From positions 1 to 35,022 of the IMG/VR virus record IMGVR_UViG_3300024964_000002: a stretch of 35,022 bases of DNA; one strand, given 5' to 3'. Made by a program: the position numbers and the translations under genes. The DNA comes from a virus. The notes under the pieces are model-generated. The model worked only from the letters and a program-made list of their open reading frames with translations. It had not been told where the DNA came from and searched no databases. Below, piece after piece: positions 191-35,022 of this stretch (position 1 is the first letter of the stretch; every line of letters starts with the position of its first letter).

Positions 191-1108
191 ATGAACACCA
201 TTACTGATGTTAAAAATTTAGGCTTATATGCAAAATATAAAGTCATCCGTACCGACGGCACAAGCTCACCAGGTGCAAAACATGAAAACGATGAATACTT
301 TGTATTAAACCTAAGCACAGATCAACACGCAATTCCTGCAATAAATGCTTATGCTAAATCATGTGCGGAAACACATCCTGCATTATCTGCTGATTTGCGC
401 ATGTTTGTTAACAGCAAGATTCAATCAAATGACGAGTTTATTACCGTACCCGAAACCACCTTACCAAGCGGCATAGTAATAGCAGCCTTTCAGGTAGGTA
501 AATATGCCTGCAGCAAATCAGATTTAGGCACTGCAATTGTGACCGCCTCACGTAAACCTTGGTCAAATATCAATTTTCACAATGCTAAAAAAACTTGCGC
601 AGAAGTTGGCTACTCACTCATTACTGAATTGCAATATTTAGCCATTGCTTACCAAATAACCCAGCAAGATATTAACTGGACCAGCGGCAAAGTTGGTGAA
701 GGTGAAGTCTATCGAGGCCTACATAAAGGCAACGTTGATGAAGCTCAAGACGGCCATTACGAAAGTACTGACACAGCAGAGCGCCGTTGGCATGCTTTAT
801 CTAACGGTGAACGTGTTTACGACTTTAGCGGCAATATTTACAGCTGGGTATTTGATGACGTACAAGGTGATGAGAATGGTGTTGTTGCCAGAGATTTTGC
901 TAAGGACTCCCCAAGCATTACAACGGCCCCTTATCCTAGCCGTGAAAAAGGTATGGGGGATTACAAGGTATGGGATTGGTCTGGCATTGCGCTCGTTCGG
1001 GGCGGCTACTGGGGCTCGGGCGGCAGCGCAGGCGCGTTCTGCCTCGGCGACGCCTGGCCTGGCGTCGACAGCGACCGTGTCGGCTTCCGCTGCACCAAGA
1101 GTCTCTAG
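191..1108 (+). CDS. DGR variable protein 1 (C-type lectin/FGE-like fold)
   Basis: 305-aa target of the retroelement. Residues 1 to about 75 form a separate N-terminal domain (KYKVIRTDGTSSPG, EYFVLNLSTDQHA) resembling small stand-alone phage proteins. Residues about 76-305 are an FGE-sulfatase/C-type-lectin-like domain (GNIYSWVFDD, ALVRGGYW, VGFRC) whose last 40 residues contain VR1. Residues 264-301 are encoded by the variable repeat. No signal peptide or membrane segment is visible. It is a clear paralogue of the protein at 31804-32547 over the lectin-like part, which lacks this N-terminal domain. Known DGR targets of this fold bind ligands through the variable surface; the ligand here is unknown. 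It is preceded by an AAAGG-type ribosome site and lies in the early int-side operon, not with the tail genes. Confidence 0.9.
   Translation: MNTITDVKNLGLYAKYKVIRTDGTSSPGAKHENDEYFVLNLSTDQHAIPAINAYAKSCAETHPALSADLRMFVNSKIQSNDEFITVPETTLPSGIVIAAFQVGKYACSKSDLGTAIVTASRKPWSNINFHNAKKTCAEVGYSLITELQYLAIAYQITQQDINWTSGKVGEGEVYRGLHKGNVDEAQDGHYESTDTAERRWHALSNGERVYDFSGNIYSWVFDDVQGDENGVVARDFAKDSPSITTAPYPSREKGMGDYKVWDWSGIALVRGGYWGSGGSAGAFCLGDAWPGVDSDRVGFRCTKSL
980..1092 (+). repeat. DGR variable repeat VR1
   Basis: Aligned without gaps to the TR at 2239-2351 (113 bp) it differs at 19 positions, all of them adenine in TR (15 A to G, 2 A to T, 2 A to C). All 86 non-adenine TR positions are unchanged. Homology stops abruptly after GTCGGCTTCCGCTG, where TR continues ACCC and VR1 continues CACC; this GC-rich end is the likely IMH. 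About 73% GC, far above the surrounding DNA. Confidence 0.95.
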
Positions 1109-1123
1109 TCACTTGTCACTCAT

Positions 1124-1148
1124 GCCGTCCGCTTGAAAGGCGGACGGC
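1124..1148 (+). other. Hairpin downstream of VR1 (DGR target hairpin or terminator)
   Basis: Perfect 9-bp stem GCCGTCCGC/GCGGACGGC, extendable by a G-T pair, with loop TGAAA. It starts 31 bp after the VR1 end and 15 bp after the stop codon. A hairpin with the same TGAAA loop follows VR2 at a similar distance, and I see none after TR. This matches the cruciform hairpins known downstream of VRs in the Bordetella phage DGR. Only a short T-run follows, so it would be a weak terminator. Confidence 0.65.
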
Positions 1149-1167: not shown

Positions 1168-1425
1168 ATGTGTCAGTTAAAAGCTTACAGAATTAGCGAA
1201 TATGATTGGTACGCGGCATACAGTGCTGATCAAGCCATTGAGTTAGCCATGAAAGATACCGGCGAAAGCAAAGAAGATACTGTCGATGATATGTATTACA
1301 CAGGCGAACCTGAGTCTGATGATTTAGAAATTTTCTGTGATGAAGGAAGAACAGAAAAAGAATTGATTACCGTCACTTTAGGGAAAATGACTGAACCTGG
1401 GTGGTGTTTTGGTATTGAGGCCTAA
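1168..1425 (+). CDS. Small acidic protein between VP1 and the Avd fusion
   Basis: 85-aa acidic soluble protein (MCQLKAYRISEYDWYAAYS). The start is ATG 1168, preceded by AGGAGAAAATAAA; the longer open frame upstream only reads through VR1 and the hairpin. It lies two bases before the MutS-like/Avd fusion gene, so the two are probably translationally coupled. The DWYAAYSADQAIELAMKD region suggests a short alpha/beta fold resembling small proteins seen in phage early operons. I cannot assign a function. Its position inside the DGR cassette makes it a possible accessory gene. Confidence 0.75.
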   Translation: MCQLKAYRISEYDWYAAYSADQAIELAMKDTGESKEDTVDDMYYTGEPESDDLEIFCDEGRTEKELITVTLGKMTEPGWCFGIEA

Positions 1426-1427
1426 CT

Positions 1428-2213
1428 ATGCACTCTCAAATCAAAGGCATCGAAGTGACTTTCAGCACGGATAATCCACACGTTGAAATAGCCAAAAAAT
1501 TGCAACAGACCTATCCGCAACACTTGGTATTGGTAGAATCTGGCACGTTTTTACAGGCGTTCAATAAATCCGCCTATGCCTTGCACGTGCTCAAGCAATA
1601 TAAGCTTAAATTGGCTGGCCCAGCGCATACACCGCACCTACGTGTTGGCTTCCCTATTGCTAACTACAAGCAGCGTTTATGGCCGTTGGTGGATGAACAA
1701 AACTTATCTTACGTGTTGGCCACAAAAAGCGGTCTTGAGCTTTGCGAGGCAACCGTGTCAAACATGATGCTTGATACGATTTCTGATGACATAGTTAATC
1801 AGGTAATTGCGGATTTAGTCACCAATAAGCAGCTCAATACAGCATCCACAGCCAAAGCATTGGCCAACCCAAACATGCAGGATTTTCTATTCAAAACTAA
1901 AGCTGAAGAGCTTGATTACCAACTGCTGCAAGACCTGATTAAATTACCACGTGATCTTCGCATCACGTGGGGCGAAAGCGTGCGAGAAACTATGCAACGT
2001 ATCATGTGTAACATCTACCTATACGGCAATGAAGATAACAAGCCACAGCTGCTAAAAAAACTATCCGCAGATATAGATTTACTGCGTCATTACATTTGTC
2101 AGGCTAAAGCACTAAATCGATTCAATTTTGCCTTTGAGCACAGAGTCGGTTTAGTGGTCGAGCTTGGACGCATTTTAGGCGGCTTACAACGCGCACAAAA
2201 GGTGGCCCTATGA
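1428..2213 (+). CDS. avd: DGR accessory protein: MutS-like domain fused to Avd-like domain
   Basis: 261 aa. Residues about 15-100 resemble MutS domain I, the mismatch-recognition N-terminal fold: SGTFLQAFNKSAYAL at 38-52 parallels the GDFYELF-type motif and VGFPIANYKQRL at 73-84 parallels the GVP motif. Residues about 165-253 resemble the Avd four-helix bundle, with LPRDLR at 173-178 and the terminal GRILGG at 247-252. Avd binds the DGR reverse transcriptase and template RNA and is needed for mutagenic cDNA synthesis in the Bordetella phage. MutS-like (MSL) genes are known DGR accessories; here both seem to be in one chain. It ends 25 bp before TR and overlaps the next open frame by ATGA. Confidence 0.8.
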   Translation: MHSQIKGIEVTFSTDNPHVEIAKKLQQTYPQHLVLVESGTFLQAFNKSAYALHVLKQYKLKLAGPAHTPHLRVGFPIANYKQRLWPLVDEQNLSYVLATKSGLELCEATVSNMMLDTISDDIVNQVIADLVTNKQLNTASTAKALANPNMQDFLFKTKAEELDYQLLQDLIKLPRDLRITWGESVRETMQRIMCNIYLYGNEDNKPQLLKKLSADIDLLRHYICQAKALNRFNFAFEHRVGLVVELGRILGGLQRAQKVAL

Positions 2214-2503
2214 ACGATACAGGGTGCGCTCTGGAAAGTCTGGCAATGCGCTCATTCGGGGCGGCTACTGGAACTCGAACGACAACGCAGGCGCGTTCTA
2301 CCTCAACAACGACTGGCCTGACAACGACAACGACAATGTCGGCTTCCGCTGACCCAACATTACAACACCTAGACGGCGGCTTAATTGCCACGGAAGGTTC
2401 AATCTTGGTCGAGAGCATCCCGCAGGAAACTGCAAAAGCAAGGCAAAAAGCCAAACCGAAAACCGCAGCAGTGCCTATGGGTGCTGTTGTGGAAAGCGGT
2501 CGT
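2214..2503 (+). ncRNA. Probable DGR template RNA with 3' spacer
   Basis: In the Bordetella phage DGR the functional RNA contains TR plus about 140 nt of spacer before the reverse transcriptase gene. Here TR is followed by 152 bases (2352-2503) before the first well-placed start codon (ATG 2504 with GGAAAG seven bases upstream). I infer that 2214-2503 is mainly RNA template and spacer. The frame from ATG 2210 happens to be open through TR (Thr-rich in that frame), so a translated alternative cannot be excluded. RNA ends are not determined. Confidence 0.5.
2239..2351 (+). repeat. DGR template repeat (TR)
   Basis: 113-bp template for both variable repeats. Read in the VR frame it is full of AAC and GAC codons (GNALIRGGYWNSNDNAGAF) and contains 27 adenines. 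Of these, 19 are changed in VR1 and 17 in VR2, and no other base is changed in either. It lies between the Avd fusion and the reverse transcriptase, the usual DGR position. The 3' edge diverges from the VRs right after GTCGGCTTCCGCTG, giving the IMH* end. Confidence 0.96.
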
Positions 2504-2806
2504 ATGAACAAACCACCACAAATAGGTGACTTAATAAAAGAGCTTAACGGCTTCTGCAATTACCTTGTTAATGAAGTTTATTTAGCTTATGGCGGACTGT
2601 GTTTTGAGTGTATTGCAAAAAGTCAATTTTCAGATAAAAGTCCATCATATTTCAATAGCTTTGAAATGGTTGATGGTTTTTGCAGAAAAATACACCCATG
2701 GGCAACAGGTTCATCTGGTTACAGTATGAATAAAGGTGGCATGAATGGCGATGGATATGATTATTTAGTAATCGTTGAACGCGCCGCCCAGGGGAGCTTA
2801 TTCTAA
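2504..2806 (+). CDS. 100-aa protein between TR and reverse transcriptase
   Basis: Starts MNKPPQIGDLIKELNGF with a ribosome site GGAAAG and overlaps the reverse transcriptase start by one base (TAATG), so the two are translationally coupled. It has three cysteines and a C-terminal YDYLVIVERA strand-like segment. No membrane segment or known motif is seen. The same frame is open back to ATG 2210 through TR, and ATG 2336 is also possible; I prefer 2504 because the upstream part is low-complexity template sequence. An unrecognised gene in this slot could be a DGR accessory. Confidence 0.6.
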   Translation: MNKPPQIGDLIKELNGFCNYLVNEVYLAYGGLCFECIAKSQFSDKSPSYFNSFEMVDGFCRKIHPWATGSSGYSMNKGGMNGDGYDYLVIVERAAQGSLF

Positions 2807-3792
2807 TGAGCGATTTCACCAACATCACCAGCCTAGACAATCTCTATGCATGCTGGCTTAAATCAAAACGAAGTAAAGGCCATAGCCTACGCATTCAACG
2901 TTTTGATGCTGATGCATTAAATTACCTTACAACGATTCAGCAACGTCTACGCACACGTACATATACCTTTGGTCCATACAAAACATTCACTGTGCGTGAA
3001 AAGAAATTTCGCGATGTAGTGGATGCACCAACCAAAGACCGCGTTGTGCATTGGATGCTTTATCAATACCTATTACCTATCTGGCAACCTAGATTTATTC
3101 ACGACACATTTGGCAACTTGCCAGGACGTGGTAGCCATGCAGCAGTTAATCGACTAGCTAAATTTACCCATAGAGAAAATACACAATGGGTACTGCAACT
3201 CGATATATCAAAATACTTTTACTCAGTACCGCACGCGCAGTTAAAAGAACGTGCTTTACGCTACATTGGCGACCATGATGTACGCCAGCTAATCATTAGT
3301 CTCATTGACTCATATAGAACAGGTGATAACTATGATGAATTATTTGCGCCTGGTTCTTTGTATAGAACCAACTTAAATAAAGGCATGCCAATTGGAAACC
3401 TAAGCAGCCAGCTATTTGCAAACATCTATCTAAATGAGTTTGATCACTGGATAAAAGAAACGCTGCGAGTTAAACACTACATACGCTATGTAGATGACAT
3501 GGTCATTCTCGGTGAAACACGTGAGCAGATGCAGAATATATGCCGATTAATCACTGAAAAACTATCAGCAGAAGGCATCACCATTCACCCAAAGAAAATA
3601 CGTATAGCGCCAACAGCTGCGGGCGTACCATTTTTAGGCTATGTAATATGGCCGCATCACATTTCAGCCGGTGCATACATTCGCAGGCGTTACCACCACA
3701 CACTAAGACAACATGAATCAGGCATCTTCGACAGAAACCAAGCACTAAATTCATACAAAGCAGCATTGGCACATACTGGATTTTCAAAATAA
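2806..3792 (+). CDS. DGR reverse transcriptase
   Basis: 328 aa, typical size for a DGR reverse transcriptase with no extra maturase or endonuclease domain. Visible motifs are QLDISKYFYSV at 131-141 with the first catalytic Asp at 133, GMPIGNLSSQ at 193-202, YVDD at 228-231 and GVPFLGYVIWP at 273-283. The SQ ending of the 193-202 motif, instead of QG, is diagnostic for DGR enzymes over retrons and group II introns. It copies the TR RNA with adenine-specific errors; the cDNA then replaces VR. Ribosome site GGGGAG lies nine bases before the ATG. It is coupled upstream to the 100-aa gene and downstream to the excisionase. Confidence 0.95.
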   Translation: MSDFTNITSLDNLYACWLKSKRSKGHSLRIQRFDADALNYLTTIQQRLRTRTYTFGPYKTFTVREKKFRDVVDAPTKDRVVHWMLYQYLLPIWQPRFIHDTFGNLPGRGSHAAVNRLAKFTHRENTQWVLQLDISKYFYSVPHAQLKERALRYIGDHDVRQLIISLIDSYRTGDNYDELFAPGSLYRTNLNKGMPIGNLSSQLFANIYLNEFDHWIKETLRVKHYIRYVDDMVILGETREQMQNICRLITEKLSAEGITIHPKKIRIAPTAAGVPFLGYVIWPHHISAGAYIRRRYHHTLRQHESGIFDRNQALNSYKAALAHTGFSK

Positions 3793-4073
3793 TGATGATA
3801 AAGTATGTCACTATTAAAAAGTTTGAAGAATTAACCGGCTACACAGAAGCCGCCGTTAATACTAAAATTCGTGATGGCATATGGTTAGAAGGCAAAGTTT
3901 TTGTCAAAGCACCTGATGGCAGAAACTTAATTTCAATTGAAGGATACGAACAATGGGTAGAAACGGCAGCGGGGTTACGCAAGCGTCAGCATCAAGCTAT
4001 GAAATCGCCTTCACGTTTCGTGGCATCAGGTGCCGTGAAAGAATCAAGCTCCAGCCCAGCGCCACTAATCTAA
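3792..4073 (+). CDS. xis: Excisionase-like small DNA-binding protein
   Basis: 93 aa (92 if the second ATG at 3795 is used). The N-terminal 55 residues (YVTIKKFEELTGYTEAAV, DGIWLEGKVFVKAPDGR, SIEGYEQWVE) match the winged-helix putative excisionase family of temperate phages. Such proteins bend attachment-site DNA and direct the integrase towards excision. The gene overlaps the reverse transcriptase stop by one base and the integrase start by about 120 bases. The basic, Ser/Pro-rich tail after residue 65 lies in that overlap and may be poorly constrained. Confidence 0.75.
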   Translation: MMIKYVTIKKFEELTGYTEAAVNTKIRDGIWLEGKVFVKAPDGRNLISIEGYEQWVETAAGLRKRQHQAMKSPSRFVASGAVKESSSSPAPLI

Positions 4074-5128
4074 AGCGCGTACAAAATCACCTAGGCGCAA
4101 TTCTAACAGCCATTGAAAATAATACATTTGATTACAAAGCCACGTTTCCAGATTCACCACGCCGTTTACAATTCATAGAAAGACAAGGTGAAGCATTAGC
4201 TTCAGAAACCTACTTCGATGACTGGATTACAGCTAAAACCAAGCAAATAAAATCATCAACGCTACTTGATTACACAAAAATCATTAACAATCTGATTATT
4301 CCGCAATTTATGGGCATGAACATTAGTGATATAAAACGTGTAGATGTCCGTAAATGGCTAGCAGGAATGACCTGCAGTAATAAACGCATGGCTAATATTC
4401 AAAGTGTAATGCGTAGCGCCCTGCAGGATGCTGTCAATGATGAGCTAATCGAAAGCAATCCGCTTTATGGCTGGAAATATGAGAATAAAGAAGCTCCTAA
4501 AAAAGTGGATGATGTCGATCCATTTACGGCCAATGAACAAGAATTAATACTTAATGAACTAACTGGTCAAGATCACAATATATTTAAGTTTTTGTTTTGG
4601 ACAGGATTAAGAACCAGTGAATTGGTGGCATTACAATGGGATGATATCGATTGGCAGCGCGGTACCATCAAAATAAATAAAGCGATGACACAGGCTTCAG
4701 ATGAGTTTGAAGAGCCTAAAACTAAAGCGGGTAATCGTGAGGTTAAAATATTGGCACCGGCAATGGAAGCCTTGAATGACCAAAAGCAATATACGCTATT
4801 AAAGAATCAAGAAATATTTCAAAGTTCACATACAGGTGAGGCACTAACTGGTGATCAACGTCTACGCAAAGTAATCTGGCAACCTGCTTTAAAACGCGCC
4901 AAAGTTAAATACAGACGTCCATATCAGACTAGACATACCTATGCCAGCATGATGTTAACAGCAGGCGAATCTATCGCATGGCTAGCACAACAAATGGGCC
5001 ACGCCGACTGGGCTAGCCTAAGAAAAACTTACGCTAAATTTATCAAAGACTCTATCCCCGATGCAGGTGATAAAGCCGTTGAGATGTTTAGTAAAAAAGC
5101 TGTCAAAAAGCTGGCAATTAAACCCTAA
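3953..5128 (+). CDS. int: Tyrosine integrase
   Basis: 391-aa phage integrase. Residues 1 to about 65 match the DUF3596-type arm-DNA-binding region (YEIAFTFRGIRCRERIKL, NTFDYKATFP). Residues about 80-175 are the SAM-like core-binding domain. The C-terminal catalytic domain has R220 (TGLRTSEL), a Lys near 258, R327 (PYQTRHTYAS), H350 (QMGHADW) and nucleophile Y360. It recombines attP with a chromosomal site, probably a tRNA 3' end given the core just downstream. Start ATG 3953 lies inside xis and has GGA about eight bases upstream. The last codons overlap two arm-type repeats. Confidence 0.93.
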   Translation: MGRNGSGVTQASASSYEIAFTFRGIRCRERIKLQPSATNLKRVQNHLGAILTAIENNTFDYKATFPDSPRRLQFIERQGEALASETYFDDWITAKTKQIKSSTLLDYTKIINNLIIPQFMGMNISDIKRVDVRKWLAGMTCSNKRMANIQSVMRSALQDAVNDELIESNPLYGWKYENKEAPKKVDDVDPFTANEQELILNELTGQDHNIFKFLFWTGLRTSELVALQWDDIDWQRGTIKINKAMTQASDEFEEPKTKAGNREVKILAPAMEALNDQKQYTLLKNQEIFQSSHTGEALTGDQRLRKVIWQPALKRAKVKYRRPYQTRHTYASMMLTAGESIAWLAQQMGHADWASLRKTYAKFIKDSIPDAGDKAVEMFSKKAVKKLAIKP

Positions 5129-5278
5129 AACACCTTATTAAATTGCCAACTTTTTAACATTCAATCAATATAACATATTGATTTTATTGCACTTTATTGG
5201 TGGAGCTGGCGGGAATCGAACCAACGGAAGACCACGCCAGTCAATGAGTTTAAGAAAAAGCTGGCAAAAAGCTGTTAT
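5094..5278. other. attP: attP: tRNA-3'-end core flanked by arm-type repeats
   Basis: The core at 5198-5222 reads, on the minus strand, as a T-loop and acceptor end of a tRNA finishing AGCTCCACCA. Beyond 5222 the T-stem partner does not fit, so it is a partial copy and not a tRNA gene. Repeats of AAAAAGCTGGCAA flank it: 5094-5106 (GTCAA variant) and 5105-5117 in tandem, 5143-5155 inverted with one mismatch, 5255-5267, and 5266-5278 (degenerate end). The 11-bp spacing within pairs is one helical turn. This is the layout of a lambda-type attP with integrase arm sites on both sides of the core. Confidence 0.8.
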
Positions 5279-5442
5279 TCTAAAAAAAATTGTAATGTAA
5301 AATCTAACACACATCCAAAATAAATAAATAGCAGGTATCCTCCTGAATATATTACTGAATTCCATAAAATTATTAATTTTTGAATTTTTACACTATGCAA
5401 CTAAAACATATAGTGATTTAATATAGATAAATCACTGCATGT
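5279..5442. other. AT-rich gap with one inverted repeat
   Basis: No convincing gene. An inverted repeat AGTGATTT/AAATCACT (5412-5419 and 5429-5436, 9-base spacer containing AATATAGAT) could be an operator or a promoter-overlapping site for the structured region that follows. The rest is AT-rich with no further signal seen. Confidence 0.4.
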
Positions 5443-5618
5443 TGTGCTTATGGAGGAATTTTTAATGAGAAGATGATTTGGTTCTAGTAGCAATGCATGA
5501 TACTACCCTGCTAGAACCATAAAGGAAGGCCCATAAATAGTCCGACCGGGAAGAACGTCTATTTATGAGCCATGGTAGTGCAATACCCAGTAATACTGTA
5601 TTAAGCACACTAAGCACA
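5443..5618 (+). ncRNA. Candidate structured non-coding RNA
   Basis: Three nested or adjacent stems occur in a gene-free stretch. An outer stem TGTGCTTA (5443-5450) pairs with TAAGCACA at 5602-5609, which is repeated at 5611-5618. Hairpin A pairs TGGTTCTAG (5479-5487) with CTAGAACCA (5511-5519). Hairpin B pairs 5528-5540 with 5559-5571, 12 base pairs with one mismatch, around CATAAATAG/CTATTTATG. ACTACC (5502-5507) can also pair with GGTAGT (5574-5579), giving a possible pseudoknot. A strong GGAGGA plus ATG precedes only a three-codon ORF (5465). Strand is not proven; plus is chosen because flanking genes are plus. Confidence 0.45.
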
Positions 5619-5691
5619 TAATAAATGTAAATGTACTTGGTGGCAATTACTCAATACAGTTAGTTTAAATATTTTTTATAGGAAATTTAAA

Positions 5692-5832
5692 ATGGCTAAA
5701 AAACCAAGTAATGAAAAAACCAGTGCTGCAGTAGCAACAAAAGCTTCAGCAATATTACGTGATCCAAATTCAACTAAAGCAGAAAAATCAGTAGCTGCTT
5801 CAGCTTTGACACAGGCGCGAAATAAAAAGTAG
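5692..5832 (+). CDS. 46-aa Lys/Ala-rich phage protein
   Basis: Small basic protein MAKKPSNEKTSAAVATKASA continuing with ILRDPNSTKAEKSVAASALTQ. The ATG has AGGAAA seven bases upstream and the gene ends just before a strong terminator, so it looks real despite its size. Similar tiny proteins (KKPSN, ASxILRDP, KSVAASALxQ) occur in many prophages and plasmids with no known function. It is probably cytoplasmic and helical. It may be the last gene of the plus operon or be transcribed from a promoter in the structured region upstream. Confidence 0.75.
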   Translation: MAKKPSNEKTSAAVATKASAILRDPNSTKAEKSVAASALTQARNKK

Positions 5833-5841
5833 GTTGATTTA

Positions 5842-5867
5842 AATAAAGGGGCTCAGGCCCCTTTATT
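5842..5867. terminator. Bidirectional terminator between convergent operons
   Basis: Perfect 11-bp stem AATAAAGGGGC/GCCCCTTTATT with loop TCAG. It gives U-rich tails on both strands and separates the plus-strand 46-aa gene from the end of the minus-strand lysis operon. Confidence 0.85.
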
Positions 5868-9460: not shown

Positions 9461-9477
9461 AGGTTTCTTTCAGGCAA

Positions 9478-9502
9478 TAAAAAACCCGCGCTAGGCGGGT
9501 TT
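9478..9502 (-). terminator. Terminator between tail protein and fibre gene
   Basis: Stem AAACCCGC/GCGGGTTT, loop of five. On the minus strand it is followed by TTTATTGCC. Same sequence family as the elements at 15261-15289, 21004-21030, 25663-25697 and 31439-31463. Confidence 0.85.
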
Positions 9503-15230: not shown

Positions 15231-15289
15231 ACAAAAAGCCCGCTAACATTGCTGGTAGCGGGCATAAAAAAACCCGCACTTGGCGGGTT
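15231..15289 (-). terminator. Two tandem terminators
   Basis: Minus-strand order: AACCCGC/GCGGGTT (15271-15289) followed by a long T-run, then GCCCGCTA/TAGCGGGC (15238-15263) followed by TTTTTG. Both point in the direction of late transcription and lie between the DUF3168 gene and the 57-aa gene. Confidence 0.85.
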
Positions 15290-17395: not shown

Positions 17396-19243
17396 TTAAG
17401 CCCAAGTTCCAATCACTGTAGTAGCCATTAATTTGGTTGGAGAAATATACTCAAGTTTCATGTATGAGCCTACAGCCGTTGATGTAACAGTGCCAGCCGC
17501 CGCCGTTACTGTTGCTCCATACTGTATAGTTACTCCTGATGGAGCTGTTATGCTTACACCATTAGTATTGTCAACATAGAAGCCTGCTACAAAGCCGCGA
17601 ATGAAAGCTGGGAATGTAAATGGAACTATTGCTACAGCATTCTGATTGTCAAAATCCGCGCCACTTTCTTCTTTAACCAATGTATGAGCCACAGTCCAGC
17701 TTGCTAATCTATTTGGATATGAGTTAGAAGCAATCTCTGGAATTAACTGTAATAATCGGCTTTGATACAAAGCATCAGCCTCACTTGCTGCTTCAAGGTT
17801 AGATAAGCTGGTTGAGTGAGTACCTTCCGTGGTGTACGCAAAAGCTGCGCCATTAACACGCCATTTACCACCAACCTGCTTAATTGATGCAATATCAAAC
17901 ACTCGGCTTGCGGGCATTCTAGGGTCGCCCGCAAGTTGTGCTGTATTGATAGCGCTCATTGCAGTTGCTGTTGTTTGATTGGCTAAAGTTGCATAGCTAT
18001 CTGTGCTTGTATTTCTACTTTCCTGTGTAGCAAAGAAAACATCTTGTAGACCATTAGCTAATAACTTAGTCCTGTATAGCTTCGCATTTTCAATGATGGT
18101 TGCATCAGACACGGCAGCGGCTTTATCGTTATAGCCTAAAGCGACCCATGCATACTGAAACCATTTTTGAGTCATCATATAATCAAGTAAAGCACGACTA
18201 CCAGTTAACGCATAATCTAATCTGTCACCACCAATACCCATATATGAGTGCGAAGTATATTTATCTAACCAACGACCAGGGAAACCTATTGAGCCAGTGT
18301 TGCCAGTTATTAAATCATTAGACGTATTCTTTGTTCCGCGTGAATCTGTGATATATAAAATACTAGGCACATTAGATAATGCTAAACCAGCAAATGGTCT
18401 ATATGTCCAGTTAGCAGTCGTTGTTCCGCCAGCAGTCGATATGTTCCCGCTTATTGCTAAAGGTGATGTCAAGGTACCTTGAGATACTGAATAATAACAC
18501 TGCTCACCTAGAGATACGCCTCGCAAATCTTGAGAGTTATTACCGCCCGACTTTAGAACGCCGCCAGCACTTCTTTGAGAGACAATAATCTGAAATAGGT
18601 CACCTTTTTTGCATCCAACATAAACTTTATCGGAGCCTGTTTGAATTGTGCCAGATGGTACGACTATTGTAGGTTGACCGCCAAATAACTGCGCTCTCGG
18701 TGTTGTATTAACAGGAAATCTAACAGCAATACCTACAGTGATGTCAATGCCAGTGCCAACTATATCAGCACCGACAATAGTAGCATTCATAAATGGAATA
18801 TCAAGATATTCAATATCGTCACCAGCTTCAACTAAACAGGTAGAGTTCATCTCCAATATTGAGGCATCTTTTACCATGTGACCAACGCCTTTTAAGACGT
18901 TACGCATAGTTTTAGCTGATGATGAACCACTCCCCTCAGCCACAAAAGCTGCACTCAATATATTCCATTTCCAAACAACACCAGTTTCAGTCACTCGGTA
19001 TGAAATATTGATATTACTAGGCACACCAGCAGCTTGAACTTGTGCAAATTTGGCAGCACTGACAGTTTTAACATGCAATCCATAACTTGGTACATCTGGC
19101 AATGCTGGATTATAAGCAGTACCACCAGTTAAATTACTCGTTGCAAAGTTTTGTGAGATTAGGGTTGATTCTTCACCGGCACTAAGTGTGACAGTGTCAT
19201 TTGCTTTATATTGTCCATAATCTGCTAGAAAACGAATTGTCAT
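17396..19243 (-). CDS. SGNH/GDSL-hydrolase domain protein in the head module
   Basis: 615 aa. The central region has SGNH-like blocks: ILYITDSRGTKN (block I, nucleophile Ser in DSR), a GIGGDRLDY block II-like segment, VALGYND (block III, GxND) and TEGTHST with the catalytic His (block V-like). The N-terminal third is beta-rich (FLADYGQYKANDTVTLSAGE) and the C-terminus has a small beta domain. It could be an esterase or deacetylase acting on surface glycans, carried as a virion decoration or spike. Its place between capsid and connector genes is unusual for a tail enzyme, and it lacks a signal peptide. Confidence 0.75.
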   Translation of the reverse strand: MTIRFLADYGQYKANDTVTLSAGEESTLISQNFATSNLTGGTAYNPALPDVPSYGLHVKTVSAAKFAQVQAAGVPSNINISYRVTETGVVWKWNILSAAFVAEGSGSSSAKTMRNVLKGVGHMVKDASILEMNSTCLVEAGDDIEYLDIPFMNATIVGADIVGTGIDITVGIAVRFPVNTTPRAQLFGGQPTIVVPSGTIQTGSDKVYVGCKKGDLFQIIVSQRSAGGVLKSGGNNSQDLRGVSLGEQCYYSVSQGTLTSPLAISGNISTAGGTTTANWTYRPFAGLALSNVPSILYITDSRGTKNTSNDLITGNTGSIGFPGRWLDKYTSHSYMGIGGDRLDYALTGSRALLDYMMTQKWFQYAWVALGYNDKAAAVSDATIIENAKLYRTKLLANGLQDVFFATQESRNTSTDSYATLANQTTATAMSAINTAQLAGDPRMPASRVFDIASIKQVGGKWRVNGAAFAYTTEGTHSTSLSNLEAASEADALYQSRLLQLIPEIASNSYPNRLASWTVAHTLVKEESGADFDNQNAVAIVPFTFPAFIRGFVAGFYVDNTNGVSITAPSGVTIQYGATVTAAAGTVTSTAVGSYMKLEYISPTKLMATTVIGTWA

Positions 19244-20969: not shown

Positions 20970-21003
20970 TTTGTTTCCTTTCGTGTTGGGTGGTGAGCGG
21001 ACA

Positions 21004-21030
21004 TAAAAAAACCCGCACTAGGCGGGTTTT
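21004..21030 (-). terminator. Terminator between protease and capsid genes
   Basis: Stem AAAACCCGC/GCGGGTTTT, five-base loop, followed on the minus strand by TTTTATG. Member of the repeated CCCGC/GCGGG hairpin family. Confidence 0.87.
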
Positions 21031-25339: not shown

Positions 25340-25657
25340 CTACCTCTTTAAATTCCAATGATGATTATTATCAATCGGTAAGCCTGCAACATCACAGCCT
25401 AATATTTGACCTGTTTTTTCAAGTCTCTGCTTGTGACTGTCGTGGCAATGTTTGCAAAGTGATTGCCAATTACTGCTATCCCAAAATAAAAGCATATCAC
25501 CACGATGAGGTTTGATATGGTCAACCACAGTAGCTTTAATAACTTGACTGAGCTTACTATGCTCAATACAAAGCGGATGTTTACGTAGATAAGCTGCTCT
25601 AGCTTTTTGCCATCTTGAATCATAACCACGCTTTGATGATGATTCTCGGTTAGTCAT
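25340..25657 (-). CDS. HNH endonuclease of the packaging module
   Basis: 105 aa from ATG 25657 (MTNRESSSKRGYDSRWQKAR); the longer frame to 25759 would run through a terminator. RGYDSRWQKARAAYLRKHPL then VDHIKPHRGD and WQSLCKHCHDSHKQRLEK give the HNH fold with its zinc-binding Cys pairs. HNH proteins beside HK97-type terminases stimulate cos cleavage by TerL. Gene order HNH, terS, terL, portal is canonical. Confidence 0.9.
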   Translation of the reverse strand: MTNRESSSKRGYDSRWQKARAAYLRKHPLCIEHSKLSQVIKATVVDHIKPHRGDMLLFWDSSNWQSLCKHCHDSHKQRLEKTGQILGCDVAGLPIDNNHHWNLKR

Positions 25658-25662
25658 AGGCA

Positions 25663-25697
25663 ATAAAAAACCCGCAAGCAATAAAGCGTTGCGGGTT
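25663..25697 (-). terminator. Terminator between Q-like gene and HNH
   Basis: Stem AACCCGCAA/TTGCGGGTT with an 11-base loop; the minus strand continues TTTTATTGCC. It separates the delayed-early from the late genes, a place where a Q-type antiterminator would act. Confidence 0.87.
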
Positions 25698-30029: not shown

Positions 30030-30085
30030 ATTAGCAAATACTAATGTTTAAAGCAATAGTGTTTATGAATTTAGTTTTTGGTAAT
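30030..30085. promoter_or_regulatory. Right operator region between cro and cI
   Basis: ATTAGCAAATACTAAT at 30030-30045 has perfect ATTAG/CTAAT half-sites. TTTAGTTTTTGGTAAT at 30070-30085 matches the reverse complement of the first at 13 of 16, and AATAGTGTTTATGAAT at 30055-30070 at 11 of 16. They occupy the divergent promoter gap, as expected for CI/Cro sites. Promoter boxes are not clear enough to place. Confidence 0.75.
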
Positions 30086-30104
30086 TAAATGGGAAACTTG
30101 GAAT

Positions 30105-30737
30105 ATGGACTTAAAAGAAACTAGAATCCTTCGCTTAAAAGCATTCATAGAAATGAATGGTGGTTCGGCGCAGGTTGCAAGAACCTTTGATATTGATGCC
30201 TCTTACCTATCTCAACTTATTAATAGTCATAGTAGCTTTGGTGAGAAATCAGCTAGAAAGCTTGAAACAAAATTTAATCTTGCCCCATATTATCTAGATA
30301 GGCTTGAAGCAAACCAAGATTTAGCAAACTATGAAGTACAAACTGTCAGCCAGTTAATAAATAAAGTACCAGTATTAGATATGGTGCAAGCAGGTGCATT
30401 TCGAGAAGCATTTGAAGATTTAGAAAGATCAGAATATATCGCTACAGATGCAAGAGTTAGAGAGCACACTTATGCCTTACGTGTCGTCGGCGACAGTATG
30501 CTACCCATATTTACACCAGGTATGATTATAATAGTAGAGCCTGATATGCCATCAGTTAGTGGGGATTATGTCATTGCTAAAAATGGTGATAATGAAGCAA
30601 CACTTAAACAATTGATTAAAGACGGTGCTGACTGGTATTTAAAGCCTTTGAATCCTCAATATCCAATTAAATCAGCTAATAATGTTAACATTGTTGGCGT
30701 AGTTATACAGGCGCAACAAGTAACTAAGTTTAAATAA
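30105..30737 (+). CDS. cI: CI-type repressor with S24 peptidase domain
   Basis: 210 aa from ATG 30105 (MDLKETRILRLKAFIEMNGG); a TTG at 30078 is in frame. Residues 20-60 are a helix-turn-helix (SAQVARTFDIDASYLSQLIN). Residues about 88-205 are the LexA/CI autoprotease: cleavage site Ala96-Gly97 in VQAGAF, nucleophile Ser131 in VGDSMLP, Lys168 in EATLKQL. So the prophage is probably inducible by RecA/SOS. It holds early operons silent by binding operators at both sides. Confidence 0.93.
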   Translation: MDLKETRILRLKAFIEMNGGSAQVARTFDIDASYLSQLINSHSSFGEKSARKLETKFNLAPYYLDRLEANQDLANYEVQTVSQLINKVPVLDMVQAGAFREAFEDLERSEYIATDARVREHTYALRVVGDSMLPIFTPGMIIIVEPDMPSVSGDYVIAKNGDNEATLKQLIKDGADWYLKPLNPQYPIKSANNVNIVGVVIQAQQVTKFK

Positions 30738-30747
30738 TTGGATTAAT

Positions 30748-31422
30748 ATGGCACTACAACCATGTAAAGAGTGTGGCAAGCAAATCAGTGATCAAGCAAA
30801 AAAGTGCCCATATTGCGGAATTGAAATAGATAAAAAAGACAATTCAACATTAATTTTTACAATAATAGTTTTATTAATAATGGTTAGTTGGTTTATAGCG
30901 AGCGGGAAAAAACCAATAGAACAAAACAATCAACTTTATATTAAACCAATAGCAGCAACTAAAGAGCCATCAGCACTTTTACCAATTATAAATACATGGG
31001 AATATGACACTTATTTAGATAATATTTCAAATAAGTCTATTTATTCAGCTACTATAAAAAGTCAAAATGACTATAAACTTGATTTTCCATATGGCGATGG
31101 CAATGTTACCGCACAATTAGTAATTAGAAATCATCCTAAATACGGTAAAGAAATTATATTTTTCGTAAGCAAAGGTCAGCTGCATTGTTCATATAGTGAC
31201 TGTAGAGTTAACTTGAGATTTGATGATGGTGATGTAATTTCATTAGAAGTACATAAGCCAGATGATAGTAGCAGCAAAGTTTATTTTTTAACAAAACCAA
31301 AAACAATTATTAGTAAAATACTTAAATCTAGAAAATTACATATTCAAGTAACTTTCTTTCAAGAAGGCTCACCAACATTTGAATTCAATACTGAAAACCT
31401 TAAAATTGAAAATCTAAAGTAA
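30748..31422 (+). CDS. Zinc-ribbon membrane protein co-directional with cI
   Basis: 224 aa. A zinc ribbon at residues 6-23 (CKECGKQISDQAKKCPYCGI) is followed by one membrane helix (about 35-50, IFTIIVLLIMVSWFI) and a beta-rich extracytoplasmic or cytoplasmic part of about 160 residues. It starts ten bases after cI and ends before a terminator, so it should be expressed in the lysogen. This is the usual place for lysogenic conversion or superinfection-exclusion genes; the specific role is unknown. Confidence 0.75.
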   Translation: MALQPCKECGKQISDQAKKCPYCGIEIDKKDNSTLIFTIIVLLIMVSWFIASGKKPIEQNNQLYIKPIAATKEPSALLPIINTWEYDTYLDNISNKSIYSATIKSQNDYKLDFPYGDGNVTAQLVIRNHPKYGKEIIFFVSKGQLHCSYSDCRVNLRFDDGDVISLEVHKPDDSSSKVYFLTKPKTIISKILKSRKLHIQVTFFQEGSPTFEFNTENLKIENLK

Positions 31423-31438
31423 CCAATCCATCCTAAAC

Positions 31439-31463
31439 AAACCCGCTTAGTGCGGGTTTTTTA
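31439..31463 (+). terminator. Terminator after the cI operon
   Basis: AAACCCGC/GCGGGTTT, five-base loop, continuing TTTATTGCC. Same family as the late-operon hairpins but in plus orientation. It isolates the cI operon from the early rightward operon that follows. Confidence 0.9.
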
Positions 31464-31803: not shown

Positions 31804-32547
31804 ATGGACACCTCAAACACAATCGCACCACAAACAGAAGTCGCCAGTCCTGAAACAGTCAGCGATCTATTTATTACCGTACCTGAAACCAAATTACCAA
31901 ACGGCACTGTAGTACCAGCTTTCCAAGTTGGTCAATATGCAACTAGCCAATCAGATGATGGCAAAGCCATTATTGTGGCTAACCGCAAACCGTGGGTAAA
32001 CATCAACTACCACAAAGCCAAAGAAGCTGCTGAAGCTGCAGGCTACAAACTGATTACTGAGCTGCAATGGTTAGCTATGGCATTTAACGCCACCAACGTT
32101 GCCGCAAATTGGACTAAAGGCGAAGTAGGCAAAGGCAAGCTATTCCGTGGAATCCGAAATGGTCATGTGAGCGCTGCTCAAGCAGGTGACTTTATCCCTA
32201 CCGATAAAAAAGAACGCCGCTGGTTAACGTTAAGTAACGGTGAAATTGTTTGCGACATCAACGGCAATGTATTTCAGTGGGTGTTTGATGATGTGCATGG
32301 CGATGAAAACGGCTTAATCAATAAACGTATTGAAGCTGATGACGTATCTCTCATGACTCCACCCTACTTTAGCGAACAAAAAGGCATGGGCTACCGTCCT
32401 GATGGCGCACGTGATTGGTCTGGCAATGCGCTCGTTCGGGGCGGCTGCTGGGGCTCGTACGACCGCGCAGGCGCGTTCTTCCTCAACTACGGCTGGCCTG
32501 GCGGCGACCTCGTCATTGTCGGCTTCCGCTGCACCAAGAGTCTCTAG
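31804..32547 (+). CDS. DGR variable protein 2 (C-type lectin/FGE-like fold)
   Basis: 247 aa from ATG 31804 with AGGGG upstream (a TTG lies one codon earlier). Short N-terminal tail, then the same lectin-like domain as variable protein 1: FITVPETKLPNGTVVPAFQV, KPWVNINYHKAKEAAEAAGY, LITELQWLAMAF, GNVFQWVFDDVHGDENG and ALVRGGCW. Residues 206-243 are encoded by VR2. No signal peptide or membrane helix. It lies about 3.3 kb upstream of variable protein 1 on the circle, remote from TR but served by it. Lacks the extra N-terminal domain of its paralogue. Confidence 0.9.
   Translation: MDTSNTIAPQTEVASPETVSDLFITVPETKLPNGTVVPAFQVGQYATSQSDDGKAIIVANRKPWVNINYHKAKEAAEAAGYKLITELQWLAMAFNATNVAANWTKGEVGKGKLFRGIRNGHVSAAQAGDFIPTDKKERRWLTLSNGEIVCDINGNVFQWVFDDVHGDENGLINKRIEADDVSLMTPPYFSEQKGMGYRPDGARDWSGNALVRGGCWGSYDRAGAFFLNYGWPGGDLVIVGFRCTKSL
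32419..32531 (+). repeat. DGR variable repeat VR2
   Basis: 113-bp gap-free match to the TR at 2239-2351 with 17 differences, all at TR adenines (9 A to G, 6 A to T, 2 A to C). Ends at the same GTCGGCTTCCGCTG boundary as VR1, and shares with VR1 but not TR the next 21 bases through the stop codon. About 68% GC. It is about 4.7 kb from TR across the join. Confidence 0.95.
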
Positions 32548-32559
32548 TCACTAATAGAT

Positions 32560-32578
32560 TTCGCTGTGAAACGGCGAA
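32560..32578 (+). other. Hairpin downstream of VR2
   Basis: TTCGCTG pairs with CGGCGAA (one G-T pair) around a TGAAA loop; it starts 28 bp after the VR2 end. Loop sequence and distance match the hairpin after VR1 although the stem sequences differ. Supports a role in DGR target recognition. Confidence 0.6.
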
Positions 32579-34764: not shown

Positions 34765-35022
34765 AAGCCATCTTTTTAACACGCTGACTGCTTTGCAAGA
34801 CAAAGATGATCCAATGGATATAGAGCGTGCAAAGGCTGTTTGTCAGGTAGGCACTGTAATCATAGATAGCGCTAAAGCGGAAATTGATTTTGCCAGGGTA
34901 AACGGTAGCGTCGATACCCAATTCTTTCAAAAATTATCTCACGTTCCGCAACTAGAAAATCAAGTTACACAGAGTGATCAAAACAGGCAGCACTCAACCA
35001 AGAATGGCAACGTGACTGTTGA
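34742..35022 (+). CDS. 5' part of small phage protein split by the contig ends
   Basis: ATG 34742 (MNDIQALRSHLFNTLTALQD), GGAGCAAG upstream, overlapping the HNH gene. It runs into the terminal repeat and continues at 1-158; the joined protein is 103 aa. The N-terminal half is helical and conserved in appearance (DPMDIERAKAVCQVGTVIID). Function unknown. It lies directly before variable protein 1. Confidence 0.85.
   Translation, partial: MNDIQALRSHLFNTLTALQDKDDPMDIERAKAVCQVGTVIIDSAKAEIDFARVNGSVDTQFFQKLSHVPQLENQVTQSDQNRQHSTKNGNVTV
34896..35022. repeat. Terminal direct repeat, copy 2
   Basis: Exact copy of positions 1-127; see copy 1. Because of it, features in this interval are duplicated in the window and should be counted once. 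Confidence 0.93.

Follow-up and report, generated by a model that had tools for sequence, protein, structure and literature searches.

Genome organization

The window analyzed here, that is, the whole stretch of 35,022 nucleotides, is a complete IMG/VR virus record (IMGVR_UViG_3300024964_000002). Its ends repeat each other over 127 bases (1-127 = 34896-35022), and the contig thus closes into a circle of about 34,895 bp. The window is the whole genome of a temperate phage with a lambda-like gene order and a siphovirus map. No near-identical genome was found among annotated phages, nor was the exact core of the template repeat (TR) found in viral contigs in a search for sister genomes.

The minus strand encodes every gene for head, tail and lysis, from terminase to lysis, as well as those for replication, together with a Cro-type DNA-binding gene and one that is cII-like. 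The plus strand carries, in this order, a cI/LexA-like repressor, a zinc-ribbon membrane protein, a terminator, target gene 2 with VR2, small genes and an HNH gene and, beyond the contig join, target gene 1 with VR1, a small ORF, the accessory gene, the TR, a leader/cargo ORF, the reverse transcriptase (RT), an excisionase and an integrase. Both targets and the DGR therefore lie on the plus strand, on the cI-int side and outside the late/tail operon. The genes concerned are:

30078..30737, plus strand (as both targets): cI/LexA-like repressor, upstream of target gene 2 (profile matches)
31804..32547, plus strand: target gene 2, 247 aa, the same lectin-fold domain as target 1, lacking the N-terminal domain (profiles, target-domain tree)
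191..1108, plus strand: target gene 1, 305 aa, N-terminal domain of ~80 aa followed by an FGE/C-type-lectin-fold domain, with VR1 at the C-terminus (profiles, model)
1168..1425, plus strand: small ORF, 85 aa, between target 1 and avd (weak match to phrog_5459)
1428..2213, plus strand: accessory gene, MutS-domain-I-like N-terminus and C-terminal Avd four-helix bundle (profiles and predicted model)
2210..2806, plus strand: leader ORF, 198 codons, comprising the TR, its 3' flank and a short cargo ORF (ORF reading and relatives)
2806..3792, plus strand: DGR-type RT, 328 aa, SQ motif, YVDD (RVT_1, E 2e-26; phrog_1423, E 4e-100)
3792-4073, plus strand: excisionase-like gene, directly downstream of the DGR (profile matches)
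3953-5128, plus strand: tyrosine integrase, directly downstream of the DGR (profile matches)

Several other features of the genome were recorded. The zinc-ribbon protein, which also has a transmembrane segment (30748-31422), sits just behind the repressor and ahead of a strong terminator (31439-31459), the position of rex in lambda. Near-identical copies of a terminator-like sequence, AAAAAACCCGC...GCGGGTT, occur at several gene ends on both strands (9469-9501, 15257-15289, 20996-21028, 31426-31458 and 25639-25675). Within the head module, a 615-aa protein (17396-19243, minus strand) matches SGNH/lysophospholipase-like esterases. An Rfam scan at gathering thresholds returned no match, and promoter scans around the targets scored at or below the chance level.

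Template and variable repeats

The repeats and the RNA or DNA structures that adjoin them are:

2239..2351, plus strand: TR, with 27 A (alignment with the VRs)
980..1092, plus strand: VR1 (TR alignment)
32419..32531, plus strand: VR2 (TR alignment)
1124..1148, plus strand: hairpin after VR1, 11-bp stem, GAAA loop (GRNA type), 31 nt past the VR (score above the 99th percentile of random windows)
32560..32578, plus strand: hairpin after VR2, 8-bp stem, GAAA loop, 28 nt past the VR (hairpin search)
2352..2505, plus strand: TR 3' flank (spacer), a conserved structured RNA, open in the leader frame (27-locus alignment, compensatory pairs)

TR, VR1 and VR2 align colinearly and free of gaps over 113 bases, 27 of them adenines in the TR and 86 other positions. 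VR1 departs from the TR at 19 positions (15 A>G, 2 A>T, 2 A>C) and VR2 at 17 (9 A>G, 6 A>T, 2 A>C), each a TR adenine, and none of the 86 non-A positions is changed in either repeat. An earlier note on this DNA, made from the sequence alone, had given this alignment and these counts, and our recomputation reproduced them exactly. Under random placement, the chance of 36/36 mismatches falling on A is, by simple arithmetic, ~(27/113)^36 = 5e-23. The distance of ~4.7 kb between VR2 and TR across the contig join, also proposed in that note, holds when counted from start to start: because the contig is circular, closed by the 127-base end repeat, VR2 lies upstream of the TR. No third VR was found in a scan of all ungapped diagonals on the plus strand of the window, a scan that recovers both TR/VR pairs.

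The TR/VR identity reaches one base further at the 5' end and breaks sharply at the 3' end, where VR and TR part after CGCTG; there the VRs read CACCAAGAG and the TR ACCCAACAT, and IMH (GC14/21-bp) and IMH* elements at this boundary are putative. A hairpin with a GAAA-type loop follows 28-31 nt 3' of each VR. In phage DGRs, a hairpin/cruciform with a GRNA loop is a target signal downstream of the VR (PMC3240598), and the hairpins after VR1 and VR2 match this description. Nearly all VRs of the relatives have a hairpin at 24-41 nt, with differing stems; none is present after the remote VR of one relative (L007).

The 3' flank of the TR folds with many compensatory pairs across 27 aligned loci (column-shuffle z about -16), as expected for a counterpart of the BPP-1 spacer, which recruits Avd-RT (PMC12875486).

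Target proteins

Profile searches assign both targets to the FGE-sulfatase/C-lectin fold, with the VRs at the C-terminus. A PDB sequence search with the target and accessory profiles gave nothing significant, and fold comparison was therefore chosen. The closest PDB structure to the model of target 1 is TaqVP, the Thermus aquaticus DGR variable protein (5vf4, E 1.3e-6), with which it shares 14% sequence identity and from which it differs in the N-terminal part. Going by profiles and models, the likeness to FGE/SUMF1 is probably a similarity of fold only, and we treat the domain as a putative binding scaffold. The idea that one template serves two lectin-like targets is borne out, a TaqVP/FGE-type fold being found in both and VR1 and VR2 each matching the same TR. 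Upstream of the VR, the two targets are 53% identical in protein and 60% in DNA.

The N-terminus of target 1 (191-430) has a single-domain form in Achromobacter phage JWF, amid DNA replication genes. In Burkholderia phage BcepF1 it is fused to an FGE-like domain, and no RT or Avd gene is annotated there within 5 kb.

The targets could be tail-borne receptor-binding proteins, like Mtd of BPP-1, a possibility that we take seriously and still consider somewhat improbable. In three RT clades, the majority of viral DGR targets are predicted tail proteins (PMC8144416); the lectin fold resembles that of TaqVP and, as a weak match, that of Mtd, and no signal peptide is apparent in the targets by eye. 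Against a tail location, the minus strand holds every late gene, from terminase to lysis, whereas the targets and the DGR occupy the plus strand from cI to int; moreover, the N-terminal domain of target 1 stands alone in the replication region of JWF and lies in a small-gene cluster in BcepF1. Because both targets sit on the cI-int strand, off the late/tail operon, a role in tail tropism is not to be assumed and, given their position between the cI and int genes and their strand, which is not that of the late genes, we think that early or prophage expression is more likely than that of a late tail protein.

Reverse transcriptase and accessory protein

The translation of 2806-3789 contains the motifs MPIGNLSSQ and YVDD, and the match to phrog_1423 agrees with the assignment of this protein as a DGR-type RT made in the earlier note. 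The same note had an Avd-like protein beside the RT, a description that stands for the Avd part and fails for the protein as a whole, which is not a plain Avd but a fusion to a MutS-I-like N-terminus. The last 100 residues match Avd (NF033474, E 8e-8; phrog_3206, E 7e-6), short of the curated Pfam and NCBIfam cut-offs, and in the predicted model (mean pLDDT 75) the C-terminal bundle matches the Avd structures 4dwl/8ub7 with TM 0.75-0.84. The N-terminus matches MutS_I (PF01624) in sequence with E 0.03, under the Pfam cut-off, and its first 95 residues are modeled as the MutS domain I fold with a probability of 1.00 but an E of 0.009-0.04. The MutS-I/Avd fusion is retained in 20 aligned relatives.

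Relatives and activity of the retroelement

RT searches retrieved relatives from viral contigs and from Methylotenera, Duganella, Gallionella and other Betaproteobacteria, many of them with two VRs. The RT of a Methylotenera oryzisoli prophage (L034) is 84% identical to that of the window, which suggests that the phage may infect a methylotroph-like bacterium. In a tree of the target domain with the VR left out, target 1 groups with near targets and target 2 with remote targets; in Methylophilaceae phages the two kinds make up distinct clades, and the target duplication therefore predates these phages.

Comparison among relatives, a check that the earlier note had proposed, bears on activity in two ways. 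First, the VRs follow the TR of their own genome: at the 7 non-A sites where the TRs of the window and L007 differ, all four VRs agree with their resident TR (7/7, 7/7), as is also the case at 11/11 such sites between the window and L035, a pattern that only rewriting from the TR would easily explain. Second, two relatives (L012 and L014, metagenomes 3300046679/3300046536) with identical TRs (0/112 differ) and 97% identity outside the VRs (3% divergence elsewhere) differ in their VRs at 30/48 adenine positions and 0/176 non-A positions, so that the VRs vary at A positions only and the TR is constant.

These data speak to whether the DGR is an old one, now inactive, its VRs written once and then frozen. 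Identical VRs do occur in some closely related records: L009, L010 and L011 are 100% identical, VR included, and L013 and L016 have the VR in common, from which we conclude that homing is intermittent rather than constant. Nevertheless, we consider a frozen DGR highly improbable: the RT, the accessory gene, the TR and both targets are all intact, the VRs show 0 non-A changes in 172 positions even though the paralogous flanks differ by 40% in DNA, and VRs of near-identical relatives differ, solely at A positions. The characterization of the DGR as apparently complete and active-looking is accordingly upheld on both points. The RT, the accessory protein with its Avd part, the TR and the two lectin-fold targets with VRs and hairpins are present and intact, and concerted VR/TR evolution and A-only divergence among relatives support activity, which would extend to the window genome today.

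One relative (L023) has a tandem duplication of ~1070 bp, from VR to TR, at 3589-5851, with the accessory gene in two copies. Its VR-like copy at 4659 has 100% identity to the TR yet carries the VR 3' flank, which could reflect either real recombination or an assembly artefact.

A leader ORF through the template repeat

The leader ORF starts with the ATG at 2210, in an ATGA overlap with the stop of the accessory gene, and is preceded by AAAGGTGG. Within the TR its frame is offset by one from that of the VR, and its end, TAATG, falls on the RT start. Among 31 distinct related loci with a recognised TR, the TR lies within an ORF that has its start on the avd stop and a Shine-Dalgarno-like site ahead of it. 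The ORF runs in frame into the RT in 24 of these; in five others (the window, L006/L034, L008, L009 and L134) it joins or ends with an inserted gene, the stop of which overlaps the RT start. Inserted cargo includes a DNA methylase (L034), a D12 methylase (L009) and a PAPS-reductase-like gene (L008). The remaining two loci (L018 and L063, RT matches 971 and 935 nt) are exceptions to the leader rule and, given that these lengths are not multiples of 3, we treat them as putative frameshifted contigs.

The stretch from the TR spacer to the RT is a cargo insertion site in Methylophilaceae phages, with inserts in the TR-leader frame (DNA methylases, a PAPS-reductase-like gene and a small unknown) that end on the RT start (window, 2210-2806; L034, 5991-7001; L009, 4877-6004; L008, 4775-6004).

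The TR-spanning ORF might be open merely by chance, in a stretch that is GC-rich and constrained as RNA, with the RT using a non-AUG start of its own close to the conserved RT start. In the TR 3' flank, substitutions are indeed spread evenly over codon positions (65/40/62 and 1203/1169/1205), so that the peptide itself is not what is kept, and a conserved leader peptide was rejected on these grounds. Further, a GTG lies 9-15 nt before the RT start in 6/24 fused loci, four of them with fair Shine-Dalgarno energy; the RT frame of a BPP-1-like phage is likewise open far upstream without a clear start; and the sequences are related and hence not 24 independent trials. We regard a chance frame as unlikely all the same. 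Over 1378 codons from the TR end to the RT, the leader frame contains 0 stops and the other two 37 and 19, and the distances from the TR anchor to the RT in the fused loci take nine distinct values, each divisible by 3 (9/9). Near the RT start, no ATG, GTG or TTG is present in 18/24 fused loci, as against 3/57 distant DGRs (54/57 have one). The anti-Shine-Dalgarno pairing of the leader ATG beats that of other ATGs (p 6e-13, for loci that are related and not independent), and in five loci the frame carries on into inserted genes whose ends fall on the RT start. A translated TR as a trait of all DGRs was rejected, the TR being in the RT frame in 4/57 distant loci.

The simplest reading would be that the RNA is under structural selection and the frame is held open to let ribosomes reach the RT. 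We favor, with some reserve, a model for this betaproteobacterial DGR clade in which ribosomes start at the Shine-Dalgarno-linked ATG on the accessory-gene stop and cross the TR and spacer into the RT or RT-coupled cargo; one RNA would be message, template and RNP scaffold, and competition between translation and template use would control mutagenesis. The leader ORF would then be translated, and in this clade gene calls that place the RT start after the TR would be mistaken. As the RT is apparently readable only through the template, there may be a link in cis between its translation and the assembly of the RNP.

Proposed mechanism

Taken together, the window almost certainly contains a working two-target DGR in a complete temperate phage genome, with one template for two old lectin-fold paralogues. 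By analogy with BPP-1, retrohoming would begin with an RNA consisting of the end of the accessory gene, the TR and the folded 3' flank, bound by the RT and the MutS-I/Avd fusion protein. The RT would copy this RNA with errors at adenines, and the cDNA would replace VR1 or VR2, marked by the shared VR 3' end and the downstream hairpin. One template can diversify two proteins because the targets, which are old paralogues, share a lectin-fold binding face while differing at the N-terminus.

Comparison with known systems

BPP-1 (Rauchvirus; mtd-avd-TR-brt) and the window are alike in the order target-accessory-TR-RT, the A-specific TR/VR differences, the folded spacer between TR and RT and the GRNA-loop hairpin after the VR (PMC3240598, PMC12875486). 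Whereas BPP-1 combines a single target with a plain Avd and has its brt ATG annotated after the TR, the window has two targets, a MutS-I/Avd fusion, the TR inside a leader ORF and an RT that is 31% identical. In reconstituted BPP-1, no clear ribosome-binding site belongs to the native RT gene, and activity rose 100-fold when one was supplied (PMC12875486). In a BPP-1-like phage (L041, 3272-3971), the RT frame is open from before avd across the TR and spacer, with a GTG at 3332 behind GAGGAAG; this open frame, which bears on the missing RT ribosome-binding site, may be due to chance in GC-rich DNA.

About one in seven of the DGRs in DiGReF has several VRs, and some targets are more than 5 kb away (PMC3521204; PMC6642488; PMC10743442). 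The window shares with the multi-VR DGRs of DiGReF, MetaCSST and the nd4/nd12 tentaclin phages a single TR with at least two paralogous or distant targets, and differs in that its target pair, which lies on the lysogeny side of the genome, is an old duplication inherited vertically within a clade of temperate phages. MSL (MutS-like, PF01624) is, alongside HRDC, a known DGR accessory (PMC10053308); a putative MutS domain I in a DGR accessory gene would be common to both, and in the window it is joined to an Avd-like bundle. Both one TR with several targets and a MutS-like accessory have thus been published already (PMC3521204, PMC6642488, PMC10743442; PMC10053308). What the two-target DGR offers is a clean case with evolutionary support, in which one template makes two proteins hypervariable while their bodies have drifted to 53% identity.

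A TR inside an annotated RT ORF was recorded in 2012 as an annotation class and taken as a sign that the order is irrelevant (PMC3521204), and we found no paper reporting dual template/coding use in the literature searched. Unlike that class, the clade of the window has retained the reading frame, a start upstream together with its Shine-Dalgarno-like site, and lengths that stay in frame, and it is this clade-wide leader arrangement, together with the cargo genes inserted between spacer and RT, that is new.
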